Shown here: positions 13,539 through 22,217 of the stretch, piece after piece | Numbering within the stretch: the stretch's first letter is position 1 | Layout of the letters: every line of letters starts with the position of its first letter | IMG/VR virus record: IMGVR_UViG_3300043419_000932 | Coordinates: 1 to 22,217 of that record | Reading direction: 5' to 3' (one strand) | Length of the DNA: 22,217 nucleotides | From: a virus | The notes under the pieces: model-generated | The model's database searches: none | What the model was told of the DNA's origin: nothing | What the model saw: the letters and a program-made list of their open reading frames with translations, nothing else | Translations under genes and position numbers: made by a program

Positions 13539-13722
13539 CGTAAAAATTGTTACCACACTATAGTAAGTAATGTCCGTTATAACTCCTAAGATTACTTGGT
13601 TTTATACCTTTAATGACACTTTAATGTGGTTTTTAAGAAATAGAAAAGCTGTTTTTTATTTTGTATACAATATGTTATGTTAAAACTGCATAGTCCTTTT
13701 ATACCTAATAATGTTAAAATGT

Positions 13723-13753
13723 TTTGATTACACCTAATAGTTACGTATATTTG
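13723..13753 (+). promoter_or_regulatory. Rightward promoter of the GIY-YIG-HTH gene
   Basis: TTTG (13723-13726), 19 bases, then TATATTTG (13746-13753): a full Bacteroidota-type promoter. The ATG follows 16 bases later. AGGTATA at 13761-13767, directly before the ATG, is the reverse complement of TATACCT found at 13603-13609 and 13700-13706 in the same intergenic region, so these may be operator sites. Confidence 0.75.
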
Positions 13754-13769
13754 CATTAAAAGGTATAAT

Positions 13770-14318
13770 ATGAAAACTAATTTAATCTACTCTCTTTACT
13801 GCCCCATTCATCACAAACCTGTTTATGTAGGTCAATCTAGTGTTGGTATGAACAGGCCATTCACACACATTAAAGAGAAATCTCACAGTGTTAAAGTTAA
13901 TGATTGGGTAAGACATCTTAAAGACCAAAACTTAGAACCAGTACTTGTAATACTAGAACATGACTTTGAAGACAAATATCTTAATGACAAAGAAAAGTTT
14001 TGGCTTAACAAGACTTTAAATGATGGACATCTTTTGTTAAACCAACAAGGGGTGTCTTCAGCATTTTATCAAGCAACCGAGTTTGATGTAGAACCTTCAA
14101 TTGATTTTCTTGCCGATATAAGACTGTATGTAAAAGGAAGAAGAAAATTACTAAAACTTACACAACCAGAGTTAGCAGCAAGGGCTGGTGTAGGATTAAG
14201 ATTTGTGAGAGAACTAGAAAGTGGTAGCAAATCTAACTTCCAGACGGCATCTATAGAAAAAGTTCTTAGCTTATTAGGAAATGTTAAAATAAAAGTAGAA
14301 CCCCTTAATATTAGTTAG
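13770..14318 (+). CDS. GIY-YIG nuclease fused to HipB/Y4mF-like helix-turn-helix
   Basis: 182 residues in two parts. Residues 1-95 fit a GIY-YIG fold: IYSLYCP (GIY position), VYVGQSS (YIG position), an Arg in GMNRPFTHIKEK (catalytic Arg position), a Glu in KEKFWLNK (metal-binding Glu position), and LLLNQQGV at the end of the fold. Residues about 118-178 read KGRRKLLKLTQPELAARAGV then GLRFVRELESG and VLSLLG, the layout of Xre/HipB-like regulators of the Y4mF type. So a DNA-cutting domain is joined to a DNA-binding domain that also resembles an antitoxin. It has its own strong promoter and is the first rightward gene. It could be a site-specific or homing-type nuclease, or a self-regulated transcription factor with a degenerate nuclease domain. 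Confidence 0.75.
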   Translation: MKTNLIYSLYCPIHHKPVYVGQSSVGMNRPFTHIKEKSHSVKVNDWVRHLKDQNLEPVLVILEHDFEDKYLNDKEKFWLNKTLNDGHLLLNQQGVSSAFYQATEFDVEPSIDFLADIRLYVKGRRKLLKLTQPELAARAGVGLRFVRELESGSKSNFQTASIEKVLSLLGNVKIKVEPLNIS

Positions 14319-14336
14319 ATGTTATAAATAACACCT

Positions 14337-14363
14337 GTCCGATATAAACGGACAACTCTTGTC
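14337..14363 (+). terminator. Two overlapping hairpins after the GIY-YIG gene
   Basis: GTCCG/CGGAC with a 7-base loop (14337-14353) and GACAA/TTGTC with a 3-base loop (14351-14363) share three bases, so only one can form at a time. There is no clear U-run, so this is a weak terminator or a regulatory switch at most. Confidence 0.35.
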
Positions 14364-14394
14364 GTAAGTATAGTAAACTTTTGAGACAAGGATT

Positions 14395-16664: not shown

Positions 16665-17279
16665 ATGAGTAAAAACACTCTAAATTCTGGTAGTCTTCAG
16701 GGATTGAAGGCTGGCCAAACCTTGTTACACCGTGCTAGGAAAGTGAACGGTGGAAAAATTGAACTTGAGTATGCTGAGGTTTTAGAAAAAGAGCCTAAAC
16801 CAGTATCTCTAGTTGCGTTATTCAATGCTAGTGACTCTAGATTCTCTCAAGGAGGAACTAAAGCTCAACGTGCTTGGGCTTATGTATCACCTGTGGATGC
16901 AGGTAGATTGTTAGGTATTGATTTATCTGATAATGCTGAGTGGTACACAGATCAACAAGGTCGTCAGCTTTTAGACTTGAATATCCTAAACCCAGTAGTA
17001 ATGCTAGGTTCTGAATCTCATTCTCTTAAAGTTCAAATCGTTGAGACTGTTGTTCCAACTGATTATCAAGAGGATAACATCGAGTCTACAGCTAAACGTA
17101 AGGGAGCTGATGGAGATTTCTGTACTCATAAGGGTATGTACATCTTCTCAAATTCAAGTGTTGTATTGAATACAGCTAACCACATCTTCTTAGAGATGGA
17201 TAAGACAACGAAGTCTGCAAAGTCTTCGAATGGTATCTATGCTAATGTAGATGCAGCAACAGGAGAGATTTTCAACTAA
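16665..17279 (+). CDS. Conserved early protein, possible ssDNA-binding role
   Basis: 204 residues, MSKNTLNSGSLQGLKAGQTL. The central ~130 residues look beta-rich and end in a long KVQIVETVVP strand. A KRKGADGDFCTHKGMYIFSN segment follows, and the C-terminus is Ser/Gly/Asn-rich. No nuclease, helicase or helix-turn-helix motif is seen. An early-region, beta-rich, ~200-residue protein upstream of the DNA polymerase could be a single-strand-binding protein, but the usual acidic C-terminal tail is missing, so the idea is only inference. It ends just before a strong hairpin at 17297-17326. Confidence 0.65.
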   Translation: MSKNTLNSGSLQGLKAGQTLLHRARKVNGGKIELEYAEVLEKEPKPVSLVALFNASDSRFSQGGTKAQRAWAYVSPVDAGRLLGIDLSDNAEWYTDQQGRQLLDLNILNPVVMLGSESHSLKVQIVETVVPTDYQEDNIESTAKRKGADGDFCTHKGMYIFSNSSVVLNTANHIFLEMDKTTKSAKSSNGIYANVDAATGEIFN

Positions 17280-18870: not shown

Positions 18871-19311
18871 ATGGAAAGGAAACAAGGTTGTATAGATTGG
18901 TTGGTTGAAGAAATCAACAAACAAAAGGCTTGGGCTGACCCTTCAAAGTTAGAACCGATTATTGAACAAGCCAAAGCAATGCACAAGGAGGAGATTCAAT
19001 ATGCCTATTGGGAGGGAGGAATGGATAAACCAAAAGGGAGTAAAGAATGTGAACACTACTACAACGAAACTTACGGAGAAACTAAAAACTCAATAACTAT
19101 GGAAAAGAAACAAACTGCGGTTGATACTTATTTTGGTCGTTACAAATGGTATAGAAAATTAGTTGGTAGTTTTTGGTACAAGCACCAATTTACAAAAGAT
19201 GCAAACGAACTAACCTTTACAGCAGGTGGGACTTGGTGGGCAAGATATAATCAATGCAATAGATATTCAGAAGTAATTGAAATAGAAACTTATGGAGGTA
19301 ACAATGAGTAA
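18871..19311 (+). CDS. Fusion of two array-type proteins
   Basis: 146 residues made of two units of the array family. Unit 1 (1-76): MERKQGCIDWLVEEINKQ...IEQAKAMHKEEIQYAYWEGG...CEHYYNETYGE. Unit 2 (77-146): MEKKQTAVDTYFGRYKWYRK... with an unrelated Trp/Tyr-rich centre, then the array's shared ending ETYGGNNE. At the join (19080-19101) an A-rich start leader, ACTAAAAACTCAATAACT then ATG, is still present inside the frame, so two former genes have probably lost the stop between them, and an internal start at 19099 may still be used. The last bases hold GGAGGT and overlap the next gene. Function unknown for the family. Confidence 0.65.
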   Translation: MERKQGCIDWLVEEINKQKAWADPSKLEPIIEQAKAMHKEEIQYAYWEGGMDKPKGSKECEHYYNETYGETKNSITMEKKQTAVDTYFGRYKWYRKLVGSFWYKHQFTKDANELTFTAGGTWWARYNQCNRYSEVIEIETYGGNNE

Positions 19312-19326
19312 ACAAACTGCGGTTGA
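19294..19326 (+). repeat. Array junction repeat, copy 1
   Basis: 33 bases identical to 19499-19531. They begin GGAGGTAACAATGAG, cover the end of one gene (GGNNE-stop) and the start of the next (MSKQTAV). A 14-base part (GGAGGTAACAATGA) recurs at 19770-19783; the start half recurs with one change at 20057 and as 17 bases inside the fused gene near 19106. Confidence 0.9.
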
Positions 19327-19516
19327 ATTATTAGAGCAACAATTAAAGGAGAGGTACTCTCTTATGAACTCTGAACCACTATTTGACCAAGCCAAGCAAA
19401 TGGAGAAGGAGCAGATAATTGATGCTCATATTCACGCTCAATTCAAAGTTTTAGAAGCAAAAAGAGAATTTGCACAAAAGTACTTTAATGATTTTTACGG
19501 AGGTAACAATGAGTAA
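19304..19516 (+). CDS. Array protein 2, 70 residues
   Basis: Reads MSKQTAVELLEQQLKERYSL and has the family core LFDQAKQMEKEQIIDAHIHA, then an ending FYGGNNE. I chose the ATG after the GGAGGTAACA element; an earlier in-frame ATG would read through that element. The family plan is MxKQTAVxxL...QAKxMEKEQIxxAY...YYNETYG, a short helical protein that I know only as a hypothetical protein recurring in Bacteroidota phages. It shares 23 identical bases (19394-19416) with the next gene. Stop and start overlap as ATGAGTAA. Confidence 0.7.
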   Translation: MSKQTAVELLEQQLKERYSLMNSEPLFDQAKQMEKEQIIDAHIHAQFKVLEAKREFAQKYFNDFYGGNNE

Positions 19517-19531
19517 ACAAACTGCGGTTGA
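19499..19531 (+). repeat. Array junction repeat, copy 2
   Basis: Identical over 33 bases to 19294-19326, joining array proteins 2 and 3. Confidence 0.9.
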
Positions 19532-19787
19532 CTTGTTAGTAAGCATACTAAATAAGGAAGGTTTTGCTCCCGTATTAACTGATGAAGAGATACAACACTT
19601 TAAGCAAATGGAGAAGGAGCAGATTGTAAATGCTTATTGGGATGGTGGACAAGATGTTCCAATGCACATAAGCACTTGTGAAAAATACTACAATGAAACA
19701 TTTGGAGTGGAAACGGGTGTAATTGTATTTGATAACATACATTTGACTAACACAAATAAAATTAATAATGGAGGTAACAATGAATAA
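19509..19787 (+). CDS. Array protein 3, 92 residues
   Basis: Reads MSKQTAVDLLVSILNKEGFA, then HFKQMEKEQIVNAYWDGGQD and CEKYYNETFGVETG, then a unique stretch (VIVFDNIHLTNTNKI) and the shared ending NNGGNNE. It is the most complete copy of the family plan, with an added C-terminal piece before the shared tail. The start overlaps the upstream stop as ATGAGTAA, 4 bases after GGAGGT. Its own end provides GGAGGT for the next gene. Function unknown. Confidence 0.7.
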   Translation: MSKQTAVDLLVSILNKEGFAPVLTDEEIQHFKQMEKEQIVNAYWDGGQDVPMHISTCEKYYNETFGVETGVIVFDNIHLTNTNKINNGGNNE

Positions 19788-20064
19788 TCTAGAAATAACA
19801 AAGGTCTCTGAATTAGAAGCAAACACTACAAGAGTATGTGAAATCAAATTTAATTGTCTAGTCACAATGCATGATGTTGCTTACAAAAAGTATAAAGGTG
19901 TATGGGGTCAAGAAAAACAATCAAAGATAGCACAATGGTTTAAAGCAAACCAAACAATAACATTAGAAGGTGTTAAAGATGCTGACCCATATGAACTTGG
20001 AATGAGGATTAAACAAGTGTTTAATCAAATGGAAGACACAATTAACAAGTATGAAAATGAGTAA
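19780..20064 (+). CDS. Unrelated protein placed within the array, 94 residues
   Basis: Reads MNNLEITKVSELEANTTRVC and continues with VTMHDVAYKKYKGVWGQEKQ and a helical end. It lacks the KQTAV...YYNETYG plan but is joined to the array by the same GGAGGTAACAATGA element, and it ends at KYENE-stop overlapping the next start. It may be an SSB-like or other small beta/alpha protein; I cannot name it. It shows that the junction sequence is not tied to one protein type. Confidence 0.6.
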   Translation: MNNLEITKVSELEANTTRVCEIKFNCLVTMHDVAYKKYKGVWGQEKQSKIAQWFKANQTITLEGVKDADPYELGMRIKQVFNQMEDTINKYENE

Positions 20065-20320
20065 ACAAACAGCGGTTATGTATTTTATTAATGAGTTGAA
20101 AAAATCAAAAGATTTTCAAAGAGTCATTAATGAAGTTAATCTAAGTAGTACATCGGTTAGAGATATAGTTCAAGAAACTTTACAATTGGAACGTGAGCAG
20201 ATTGTACTGTCTTATACTGCAAATAGCGTAATAAGAATAAGAACTAAAGCTGAACAATACTACAACGAAACTTACGGAGAAAAGTTCGGGGAAAAGTTCG
20301 GAGGTCAAGATGAAAACTAA
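20057..20320 (+). CDS. Array protein 4, 87 residues
   Basis: Reads MSKQTAVMYFINELKKSKDF, then LQLEREQIVLSYTANSVIRI and AEQYYNETYGEKFGEKFGGQ. A 25-base stretch (20258-20282) coding for YYNETYGE is identical to 19057-19081 in the fused gene, which indicates recent duplication or gene conversion. Near the end a 12-base unit is tandemly doubled (20279-20290, 20291-20302), giving EKFG twice. An ATG six bases earlier (MKMSK) is possible. Function unknown. Confidence 0.65.
   Translation: MSKQTAVMYFINELKKSKDFQRVINEVNLSSTSVRDIVQETLQLEREQIVLSYTANSVIRIRTKAEQYYNETYGEKFGEKFGGQDEN
20279..20302 (+). repeat. 12-base tandem duplication
   Basis: GAAAAGTTCGGG then GAAAAGTTCGGA, in frame, duplicating Glu-Lys-Phe-Gly inside array protein 4. 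A recent slippage event is the simple reading. Confidence 0.8.
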
Positions 20321-20533: not shown

Positions 20534-21914
20534 TTCTATCTATGTAGTTAATGGTAAAGATAATCTCTTTGAATACCCATTGAACTCGTGTACAATGCAA
20601 GAATGTGTAGACTACTTACGATCAATTGATTTGATTGGGGTAGATACCGAGACCGAAGGTTTCGACTTCACAGGCAAACGATTGTTAATGATTCAATGTG
20701 GTGACAAAGGGAAACAGTTTATCATTGATTACAGAGTAACTAGTAAGCAAGAGATAGCATTGTTGAAATCTGTTTTAGAAGATGATTCTAAAATTAAGAT
20801 ACTTCATAATGCTAAGTTTGATTACAAGTTCCTCAAGTTCTATTGTAATATCAGCCTCAATAATGTGTACGACACATTCTTGGTGGAGAAGATATTACAC
20901 TGTGGTAAAGACGATTATGGTTTTGCTCTTGGCAAGCTTACTCAAAGGTATTTAAACGTCACTCTCAATAAAGAAGTACGTAACAGATTCGTAGACCTTG
21001 GTAGTAATCCATTCACTGTTGATCAAATGGTGTATGGTGCTAAAGATGTAGAATATCTAATCGATATCTATCACAAACAACAGCCTGATATTGAGCTTAA
21101 GAGACTACGAAGTGTAGTTAGGCTTGAGAACGAAGCTGTTGTAGTTTTCTCTGAGATTGAGTATGAGGGATTAATCCTTGATACTGAAGCTTGGCAAAAA
21201 CTTGCTGTCAGAAACAAAGCCATGTCTATTCAGCTTGAGAAAGAGCTGGACAAGTCATTGGTTGCTGATGAAAGGTTTACGAAATACAAGGCACAAAAGC
21301 AGTTGGATATGTTTACTGCTGTAGAGGATTTGAAAGAGTCTACAGTTAAGTGGTCGTCCCCAACTCAAGTGTTAAAGATTTTCAGAACGTTAGTACCTGA
21401 GCTTGAGAATGCTAACGGTAAGAAGCTTGCACCTTATAGGTTTAAGCATACTCTTATCGATGAGTATATCAAGTACAAGGAGAAGGATAAGTTATCATCT
21501 GCATTTGGAGATAACTTCTACACATTCCTTAGTGCTGACAAGAAAGTTAGAACGAATTTCACACAAATCCTGGACACAGGTCGTGTTAGTAGTTCTGAGC
21601 CCAATATGCAACAAATTCCTGCTACTAACGAGTACAGAAATTGCTTTGTGGCTCCTGAAGGTTATGTGTTTGTATCTAGTGACTACTCATCACAAGAATT
21701 AAATGTAATAGCATATGGATCTCAAGACCCTGTGTTTCTAAAAGCTCTCGAAAATAATGAAGACTTGCACTCGGTATGTGCAGAGTTAGTATTCGGAGAA
21801 GTATGGAAGAATGCAGCAGAAGAGGATTGTGCCTATTACAAAACGAAAGAGAAGTGTGACTGTAAAGCTCACAAGAAATTAAGAACTCAAGTTAAGACAA
21901 TCAATTTCGGTTAA
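20520..21914 (+). CDS. polA: DNA polymerase family A, N-terminal exon
   Basis: 464 residues, starting MKNSDSIYVVNGKDNLFEYP. 3'-5' exonuclease domain: Exo I VDTETEG (Asp42, Glu44), Exo II HNAKFDYKF (Asp101) and Exo III YGAKD (Asp176). Polymerase domain: DTGRVSSSEPNMQQIP (about 352-367), motif A FVSSDYSSQELN (Asp388), then RTQVKTINFG, the first half of motif B (O-helix), where the frame meets TAA. Palm motif C (HDE) and the rest of the fingers are missing, so this product alone could not polymerise. A short Cys-rich insert (DCAYYKTKEKCDCKAH) lies between motifs A and B. It replicates the phage genome. The break coincides with a possible group I intron site. Confidence 0.92.
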   Translation: MKNSDSIYVVNGKDNLFEYPLNSCTMQECVDYLRSIDLIGVDTETEGFDFTGKRLLMIQCGDKGKQFIIDYRVTSKQEIALLKSVLEDDSKIKILHNAKFDYKFLKFYCNISLNNVYDTFLVEKILHCGKDDYGFALGKLTQRYLNVTLNKEVRNRFVDLGSNPFTVDQMVYGAKDVEYLIDIYHKQQPDIELKRLRSVVRLENEAVVVFSEIEYEGLILDTEAWQKLAVRNKAMSIQLEKELDKSLVADERFTKYKAQKQLDMFTAVEDLKESTVKWSSPTQVLKIFRTLVPELENANGKKLAPYRFKHTLIDEYIKYKEKDKLSSAFGDNFYTFLSADKKVRTNFTQILDTGRVSSSEPNMQQIPATNEYRNCFVAPEGYVFVSSDYSSQELNVIAYGSQDPVFLKALENNEDLHSVCAELVFGEVWKNAAEEDCAYYKTKEKCDCKAHKKLRTQVKTINFG

Positions 21915-21959
21915 ATTTTATTATCTTTGTCTTATGAAAAAAGATAGCCAGGCCGAAGT
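21904..21959 (+). other. Candidate group I intron P1 helix
   Basis: The exon end ATTTCGGT (21904-21911) pairs with GCCGAAGT (21952-21959) over 8 bp. The last exon base U pairs with G, the hallmark of a group I 5' splice site. An inner TATCTTT/AAAGATA hairpin (21922-21928, 21940-21946) extends it. The same bases hold a -7-like TATCTTTG at 21922-21929. Confidence 0.5.
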
Positions 21960-22217
21960 AAAAATCCGTAAATTCAGGGAACCCTCAGCACGTAACGGTG
22001 GTGGCAATCCTGAGCCAAGCCTTGAGAGTAAGGAAGGTGCAGAGACTAGACACGGATTATGTAAGAAATGCAATGAACCTATTCCGGTTCACAAATACAA
22101 AAATGCTAAATTTTGCAGCGACAAATGTAGAACTGCATTTGCTTCTCATAAATGGAGAGTTGAACATGGATTAATCAAAGTTCCTAATGTAGGATCTGGA
22201 GGTAATCAATGGGGAAA
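21912..22217 (+). mobile_element. Probable group I intron in the polymerase gene (5' part)
   Basis: The polymerase reading frame is cut within motif B by sequence that starts with TAA and carries an HNH-like ORF. Self-splicing introns with HNH homing endonucleases in DNA polymerase genes are known from phages (SPO1 is the classic case) and introns are reported in crAss-like phages. The catalytic core (P3-P9) and the second exon would lie beyond the right edge, so the class is inferred from the break point, the P1 helix and the ORF. Confidence 0.55.
21934..22217 (+). CDS. HNH-type homing endonuclease candidate (N-terminal part)
   Basis: 94 residues are visible, open at the edge: MKKDSQAEVKIRKFREPSAR, a polar linker, then LCKKCNEPIP (Cys43, Cys46) and KFCSDKCRTAF (Cys61, Cys65), a CxxC...CxxxC zinc finger, followed by KVPNVGSGGNQWG. 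A zinc finger followed by VGSGGNQ-x-G is a pattern I associate with N-terminal parts of phage HNH endonucleases; the His-Asn-His core would lie beyond the edge. Its start codon lies within the loop of the candidate P1 extension, and a TATCTTTG element ends 4 bases before it, so it may also be transcribed independently. The nuclease call is inference until the catalytic part is seen. Confidence 0.6.
   Translation, partial: MKKDSQAEVKIRKFREPSARNGGGNPEPSLESKEGAETRHGLCKKCNEPIPVHKYKNAKFCSDKCRTAFASHKWRVEHGLIKVPNVGSGGNQWG

Follow-up and report, generated by a model that had tools for sequence, protein, structure and literature searches.

What a phage does with a gene that joins a nuclease to the DNA reader of a bacterial toxin–antitoxin operon is the question raised by the locus described here. 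The window, meaning the whole stretch of DNA analysed, is a viral record of 22,217 bases. We read its phage as crAss-like from phrog families and gene order; terminase and portal match phrog_6681 (E 3e-129) and phrog_6547 (E 1e-118). The gene, supported by ORF call, TIGR03070, an AlphaFold2 model and fold search, lies at 13770–14318 (+) and encodes 182 amino acids, exactly as a preliminary description made from the sequence had placed it. It also sits, as that description held, at a divergence point, with a leftward gene block on one side and a rightward block on the other. The further claim that it is served by the strongest promoter of the window is not supported: a Bacteroidota-type promoter, TTG-N19-TATATTTG, can be matched at 13724–13753 (+), but the pattern occurs twice in the window against 0.75 occurrences expected and is not rarer than chance.

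A nuclease fold joined to a HipB fold

The N-terminal part is a GIY-YIG domain (residues 5–95; 13782–14054, +), as indicated by alignments, model, fold search and PF01541. Profile evidence from the window protein alone is faint: PF01541 scores 13.2 bits, under its cut-off of 22.6, and the group I intron endonuclease family TIGR01453 matches weakly (E 6e-4). PF01541 is matched at E<0.01 by 25 of 36 family members. Querying PDB sequences with a profile of the GIY-YIG part gave no meaningful match, and the likeness to known GIY-YIG structures comes from fold search only. In the AlphaFold2 model (mean pLDDT 87.7), residues 1–95 superpose on the catalytic domain of I-TevI (1ln0; Z 9.9, 85 aligned residues, 2.3 Å). 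The best structural match, limited to the GIY-YIG part, is the nuclease PD-T4-3 (PDB 9u75; Z 10.4). Structure prediction thus bears out the GIY-YIG assignment of the preliminary description.

The residues expected of an active site are retained across the family. All of 36 sequences have Y7, Y19, G21, H33, E75 and N91, and R29 is kept in at least 90%, being replaced only in L142 (by K) and L148 (by C) in a 47-row alignment. By motif order, we read the fusion's Arg and Glu as the counterparts of I-TevI R27 and E75. One option in the preliminary description was a repressor derived from a nuclease; such a dead nuclease is disfavoured, since nearly all of the 47 distinct relatives keep the catalytic-type set of Tyr, Tyr, Arg, His, Glu and Asn.

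The C-terminal part is a complete HipB-type helix-turn-helix (HTH) domain, including the C-terminal strand (residues ~112–180; 14103–14309, +), identified by TIGR03070 and fold search. TIGR03070 (couple_hipB/Y4mF) matches it with E 8e-13 and 48.1 bits, under the family cut-off of 71.65, while Pfam HTH_3 scores 24.6 bits, over its cut-off of 23. Residues 110–182 of the model match HipB structures 8ezt (Z 10.2) and 4z5h (Z 9.1). Best segments share 40–72% identity with short HipB proteins, mostly of Bacteroidota, and the closest relatives are the HipB proteins of Bacteroidota hipBST toxin–antitoxin operons. In two such host operons examined, HipB is followed by HipS-like (Couple_hipA) and HipT-like (HipA_C) genes, the hipBST order. 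The recognition segment, GVGLRFVRELESG (14187–14225, +), is of the pattern found in these host proteins, hereafter type 1. Model and family comparison together back the joining of GIY-YIG to HipB that the preliminary description had reported.

The search for the same fusion in other phages, proposed there, yielded 47 distinct fusions in scans of viral contigs. They are spread over different phage kinds: L003 carries the gene beside a phosphoesterase-like gene, and L004 in another gene order. The top match in a viral structure library, A0A6J5KZ42, spans the whole fusion with 30% identity and carries no name other than HTH_XRE. Searching GenBank phages by tblastn gave no match, nor did a GIY-YIG-only profile against 395 Bacteroidota genomes, a search run without a positive control. 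No publication combining 'GIY-YIG' and 'HipB' was found in open-access full text, and we found no description of this phage family in the literature searched.

Operator half-sites in hosts and phages

Host HipB proteins with a type-1 recognition helix (GVGxRFxREL) have operators near TATACC-N6-GGTATA in 77 of 77 promoters, a set chosen by that helix. These operators are phased by ~41 bp, mostly at -20/-21, -61/-62, -102 and -142 from the ATG. The spacer of six is correct; a scan with a spacer of five gave zero sites. Host HipB proteins of type 2 (helix GVALTVxRKI) instead have a start-proximal CATATA half-site in 7 of 8 cases and GGTATA in none. Among other host genome loci, 17 of 20 type-1 rows carry GGTATA close to the ATG and 0 of 20 carry CATATA. 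Both sets come from a search of genomes in which a type-2 HTH was the query, plus four further loci; L158 and L184 are one place, and the four added loci overlap the 77-promoter set.

Phage fusions follow the same rule. Of 11 type-1 genes, nine have GGTATA next to the start codon, against 0 of 30 type-2 genes, whereas [CG]ATATA is present in 21 type-2 genes and no type-1 gene; nine type-2 genes are without it, and the promoters of L004, L107 and L108 have no such half-sites. The contrast of 9/11 with 0/30 gives a Fisher p of 1.6e-7, ignoring relatedness, and is weakened because the genes are related: only two independent pairs fall on supported branches, which puts significance out of reach. 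On the GIY-YIG-domain tree, helix type changes about four times (at least four) and GGTATA at least three times. These comparisons point to what appears to be a new specificity code, common to hosts and phages, that links recognition helix to operator half-site. The binding specificity predicted for the fusions, for hip operators of the matching helix type, is well supported, indirectly, by the same patterns.

Perfect type-1 sites are rare in the 198 genomes of the phylum that were scanned, at 0–4 per genome, and a reversed control pattern occurs at the same order of frequency. Of the 75 perfect operators listed for host genomes, 30 have a hipB match no more than 400 bp away. The 82 perfect sites in viral contigs were rejected as chance hits, with no family member or host HipB homologue detected within 700 bp.

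The window's own promoter holds a reduced version of this arrangement. A GGTATA half-site lies just 5' of the ATG (13762–13767, +), the position of the start-proximal operator in host hipB genes. Upstream of it are a degenerate hip operator with its left half intact (TATACCTAATAATGTTAA; 13700–13717, +) and an operator relic (TATACCTTTAATGACACT; 13603–13620, +) that aligns with the left operator of relatives lacking the gene. The 170 bp upstream of the gene hold three of the window's eight GGTATA/TATACC hexamers and no full operator. The best PWM score there is 4.0, compared with a host median of 24.3; the case for binding at this promoter therefore rests on half-sites and on relatives. In nine type-1 phage promoters with a proximal GGTATA, the left half matches TATACC at one to four of six positions, and L002, L099, L110 and L114 have a fuller operator further upstream. 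Such weak sites could permit repression at high dose while reducing self-cutting. Elsewhere in the window, the best hip-operator-like site (17121–17138, PWM 15.0) falls inside the ORF 16665–17279; none of 30 simulated windows reached 15.

A possibly mobile locus with gene-less relatives

Five relatives with terminases 90–99% identical (L198, L202, L204, L205, L240) are without the fusion gene at the same place. Alignments show that the missing stretch, 13635–14359 (+), comprises promoter, gene and a 3' hairpin (TGTCCGATATAAACGGACA; 14336–14354, +). The left flank match ends at 13634 in L198, L202 and L240 and resumes at 14298–14369, the right edge varying. At the gap stands a hip-like operator pair: 41 bp apart in L240 (TATACCCTATATGATACT and AATACCTCGACGGGTACG), L198 and L202. 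In L204 and L205 the pair is stronger, with a spacing of 51 bp. Only nine sites reach PWM 12 across 856 kb of terminase loci, and six of these are at the gene-less place. No HipB was found elsewhere in 18 terminase-relative records, which are mostly fragments.

This operator pair fits a homing target, and it also fits relics of a lost copy. L198 has the hairpin that follows the fusion gene's stop codon, and its similarity reaches roughly 20 bases into the 3' end of the coding sequence; in L198 and L202 a remnant of the gene's C-terminal part may survive. The gene-less state could for that reason be a loss, with the operators as its relics.

Reader domains appear to have moved as well. In L114, the HTH is 80% identical to host HipB and 55% to the nearest phage HTH; in L004 the values are 70% and 62%. 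The nuclease domains of both are 72–77% identical (L114 ~77%) to phage genes of the opposite helix type. Since their HTHs are nearer to host HipB while their nuclease domains are nearer to phage genes, L114 and L004 likely re-acquired HipB from hosts. L109 is the opposite case, with a type-2 helix and CATATA inside the window's nuclease clade.

Other observations concern gene exchange and neighbouring elements. Between L002 (1300–2100) and L003, flanks are mostly 95–100% identical per 100 bp, while the fusion-gene promoter falls to 65% and the 3' end to 74–82%, as if alleles had been exchanged. In L117, the fusion gene begins right after an apparent tRNA gene, upstream of 2628. A group I catalytic intron match (RF00028) lies at window positions 21903–22130 (+; 53.6 bits, E 3e-11). 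The polA ORF ends exactly at this match, after ...KTINFG, and the polymerase gene is thus probably interrupted by an intron here; an ORF with Cys pairs follows from ~21935. Small related ORFs, starting MSKQTAV or similar, stand in series at 18871–20320 (+), with a like ORF (MKQTAVDWL) in L004 at 859–1086.

A predicted nuclease for hip operators

We favour, with moderate confidence, the view that the gene encodes a free-standing, mobile and autoregulated GIY-YIG nuclease with a captured HipB, predicted to recognise hip operators and probably to cleave DNA at them. Its C-terminal HipB would have been captured from Bacteroidota hipBST operons. A HipB-type dimer would read hip operators, which for type 1, that of the window, are TATACC-N6-GGTATA. 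On the gene's own promoter, binding mainly to half-sites would cause autorepression; at intact operators, in host hipBST arrays or the gene-less phage pair, the attached GIY-YIG domains would cut nearby DNA. Because related fusions in dozens of phages carry in their promoters the binding sites of the host antitoxin-operon regulator, the switch sites of host toxin–antitoxin genes probably both guide the enzyme and govern its expression. Operator cutting would endanger the phage's own genome unless intact sites, several sites or another motif were required. The preliminary description's other option was cutting of host or competitor DNA at sequences bound by the HTH; its binding half gains strong indirect support from the helix–operator code common to fusions and host hip promoters, and the cutting itself is predicted. 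That description mentioned neither the half-sites in the gene's own promoter nor the relatives that lack the gene and have operators in its place. The target whose cleavage benefits the phage might be the host hip locus, a hip-bearing mobile element or the allelic phage locus. More tentatively, phages may capture host HipB time and again, building nucleases that domain exchange can retarget and that would destroy the hipBST loci of the host or of a competing element, at the operator arrays, in the course of infection. Such enzymes would be a nuclease-based answer to toxin–antitoxin loci.

Less probable is a selfish homing endonuclease whose target is the operator pair of the gene-less phage locus, host operators being incidental and the HTH serving mainly autorepression, as in I-TevI, which binds an operator upstream of its gene and cleaves there ~100-fold less than at the homing site (PMC2988022). 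The gene's presence in the window and absence from the allelic sites of the five relatives, which bear hip-like operator pairs, agrees with homing, as does the spread of the family across different phage kinds. However, the possible remnants in L198 and L202 and the hairpin in L198 admit loss with relic operators, and the helix code also follows host hip operators.

We think it improbable that the protein is a regulator with an inactive nuclease domain that represses host hipBST, phage genes or both. Precedents exist, in that HipB of hipBST autoregulates (PMC8262856) and the phage XRE protein TgrL can take over a host XRE regulon (PMC10688885), but the family-wide conservation of active-site residues speaks against it. 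A mimic of the antitoxin, which would neutralise host HipT or HipS–HipT by binding it, although compatible with the complete HipB fold and its C-terminal strand, is scarcely credible: the hipBST antitoxin is HipS and HipB alone is none (PMC8262856), and the GIY-YIG domain would be left without explanation.

The closest parallel to our favoured reading, a nuclease steered to hip operators, is Odn (ICP1 gp88, the origin-directed nuclease), likewise a phage GIY-YIG-superfamily nuclease with a DNA-binding domain. Odn reads its target through a domain resembling the target's RepA, one common to the attacked element, and recognises that element's own repeats (PMC8263062); here, HTH and operators are common to the fusion and the host hipBST regulator. 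Odn differs in joining T5orf172 to RepA_N against a satellite origin, as established by experiment, whereas the fusion's reader is host HipB and its target is predicted. I-TevI and the T4 intron endonucleases have the GIY-YIG catalytic fold, and the DNA-binding part of I-TevI acts at the operator before its own gene, a role proposed here for the fusion; I-TevI is, however, intron-borne, with a linker, zinc finger, minor-groove helix and an HTH of its own but no HipB (PMC2988022). HipB of hipBST (PMC8262856) matches the fusion's reader in HTH fold and recognition segment and shares its operator half-sites; the fusion differs in being nuclease-fused and phage-borne, apparently with no hipS or hipT next to it. 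No hip kinase was found among the ten window proteins scanned, which covered the small ORFs adjoining the gene only in part. PD-T4-3, alike in its GIY-YIG fold, is a 5hmC-specific restriction endonuclease.

The fusions form a family of phage nucleases in which the recognition helix gives the predicted binding sequence, and this sequence can be searched for in host genomes. They would extend the idea behind Odn, a nuclease equipped with the DNA reader of the element it attacks, beyond satellites to a host toxin–antitoxin regulator. With such a family in hand, the role of hip loci in phage infection becomes directly testable in Bacteroidota.
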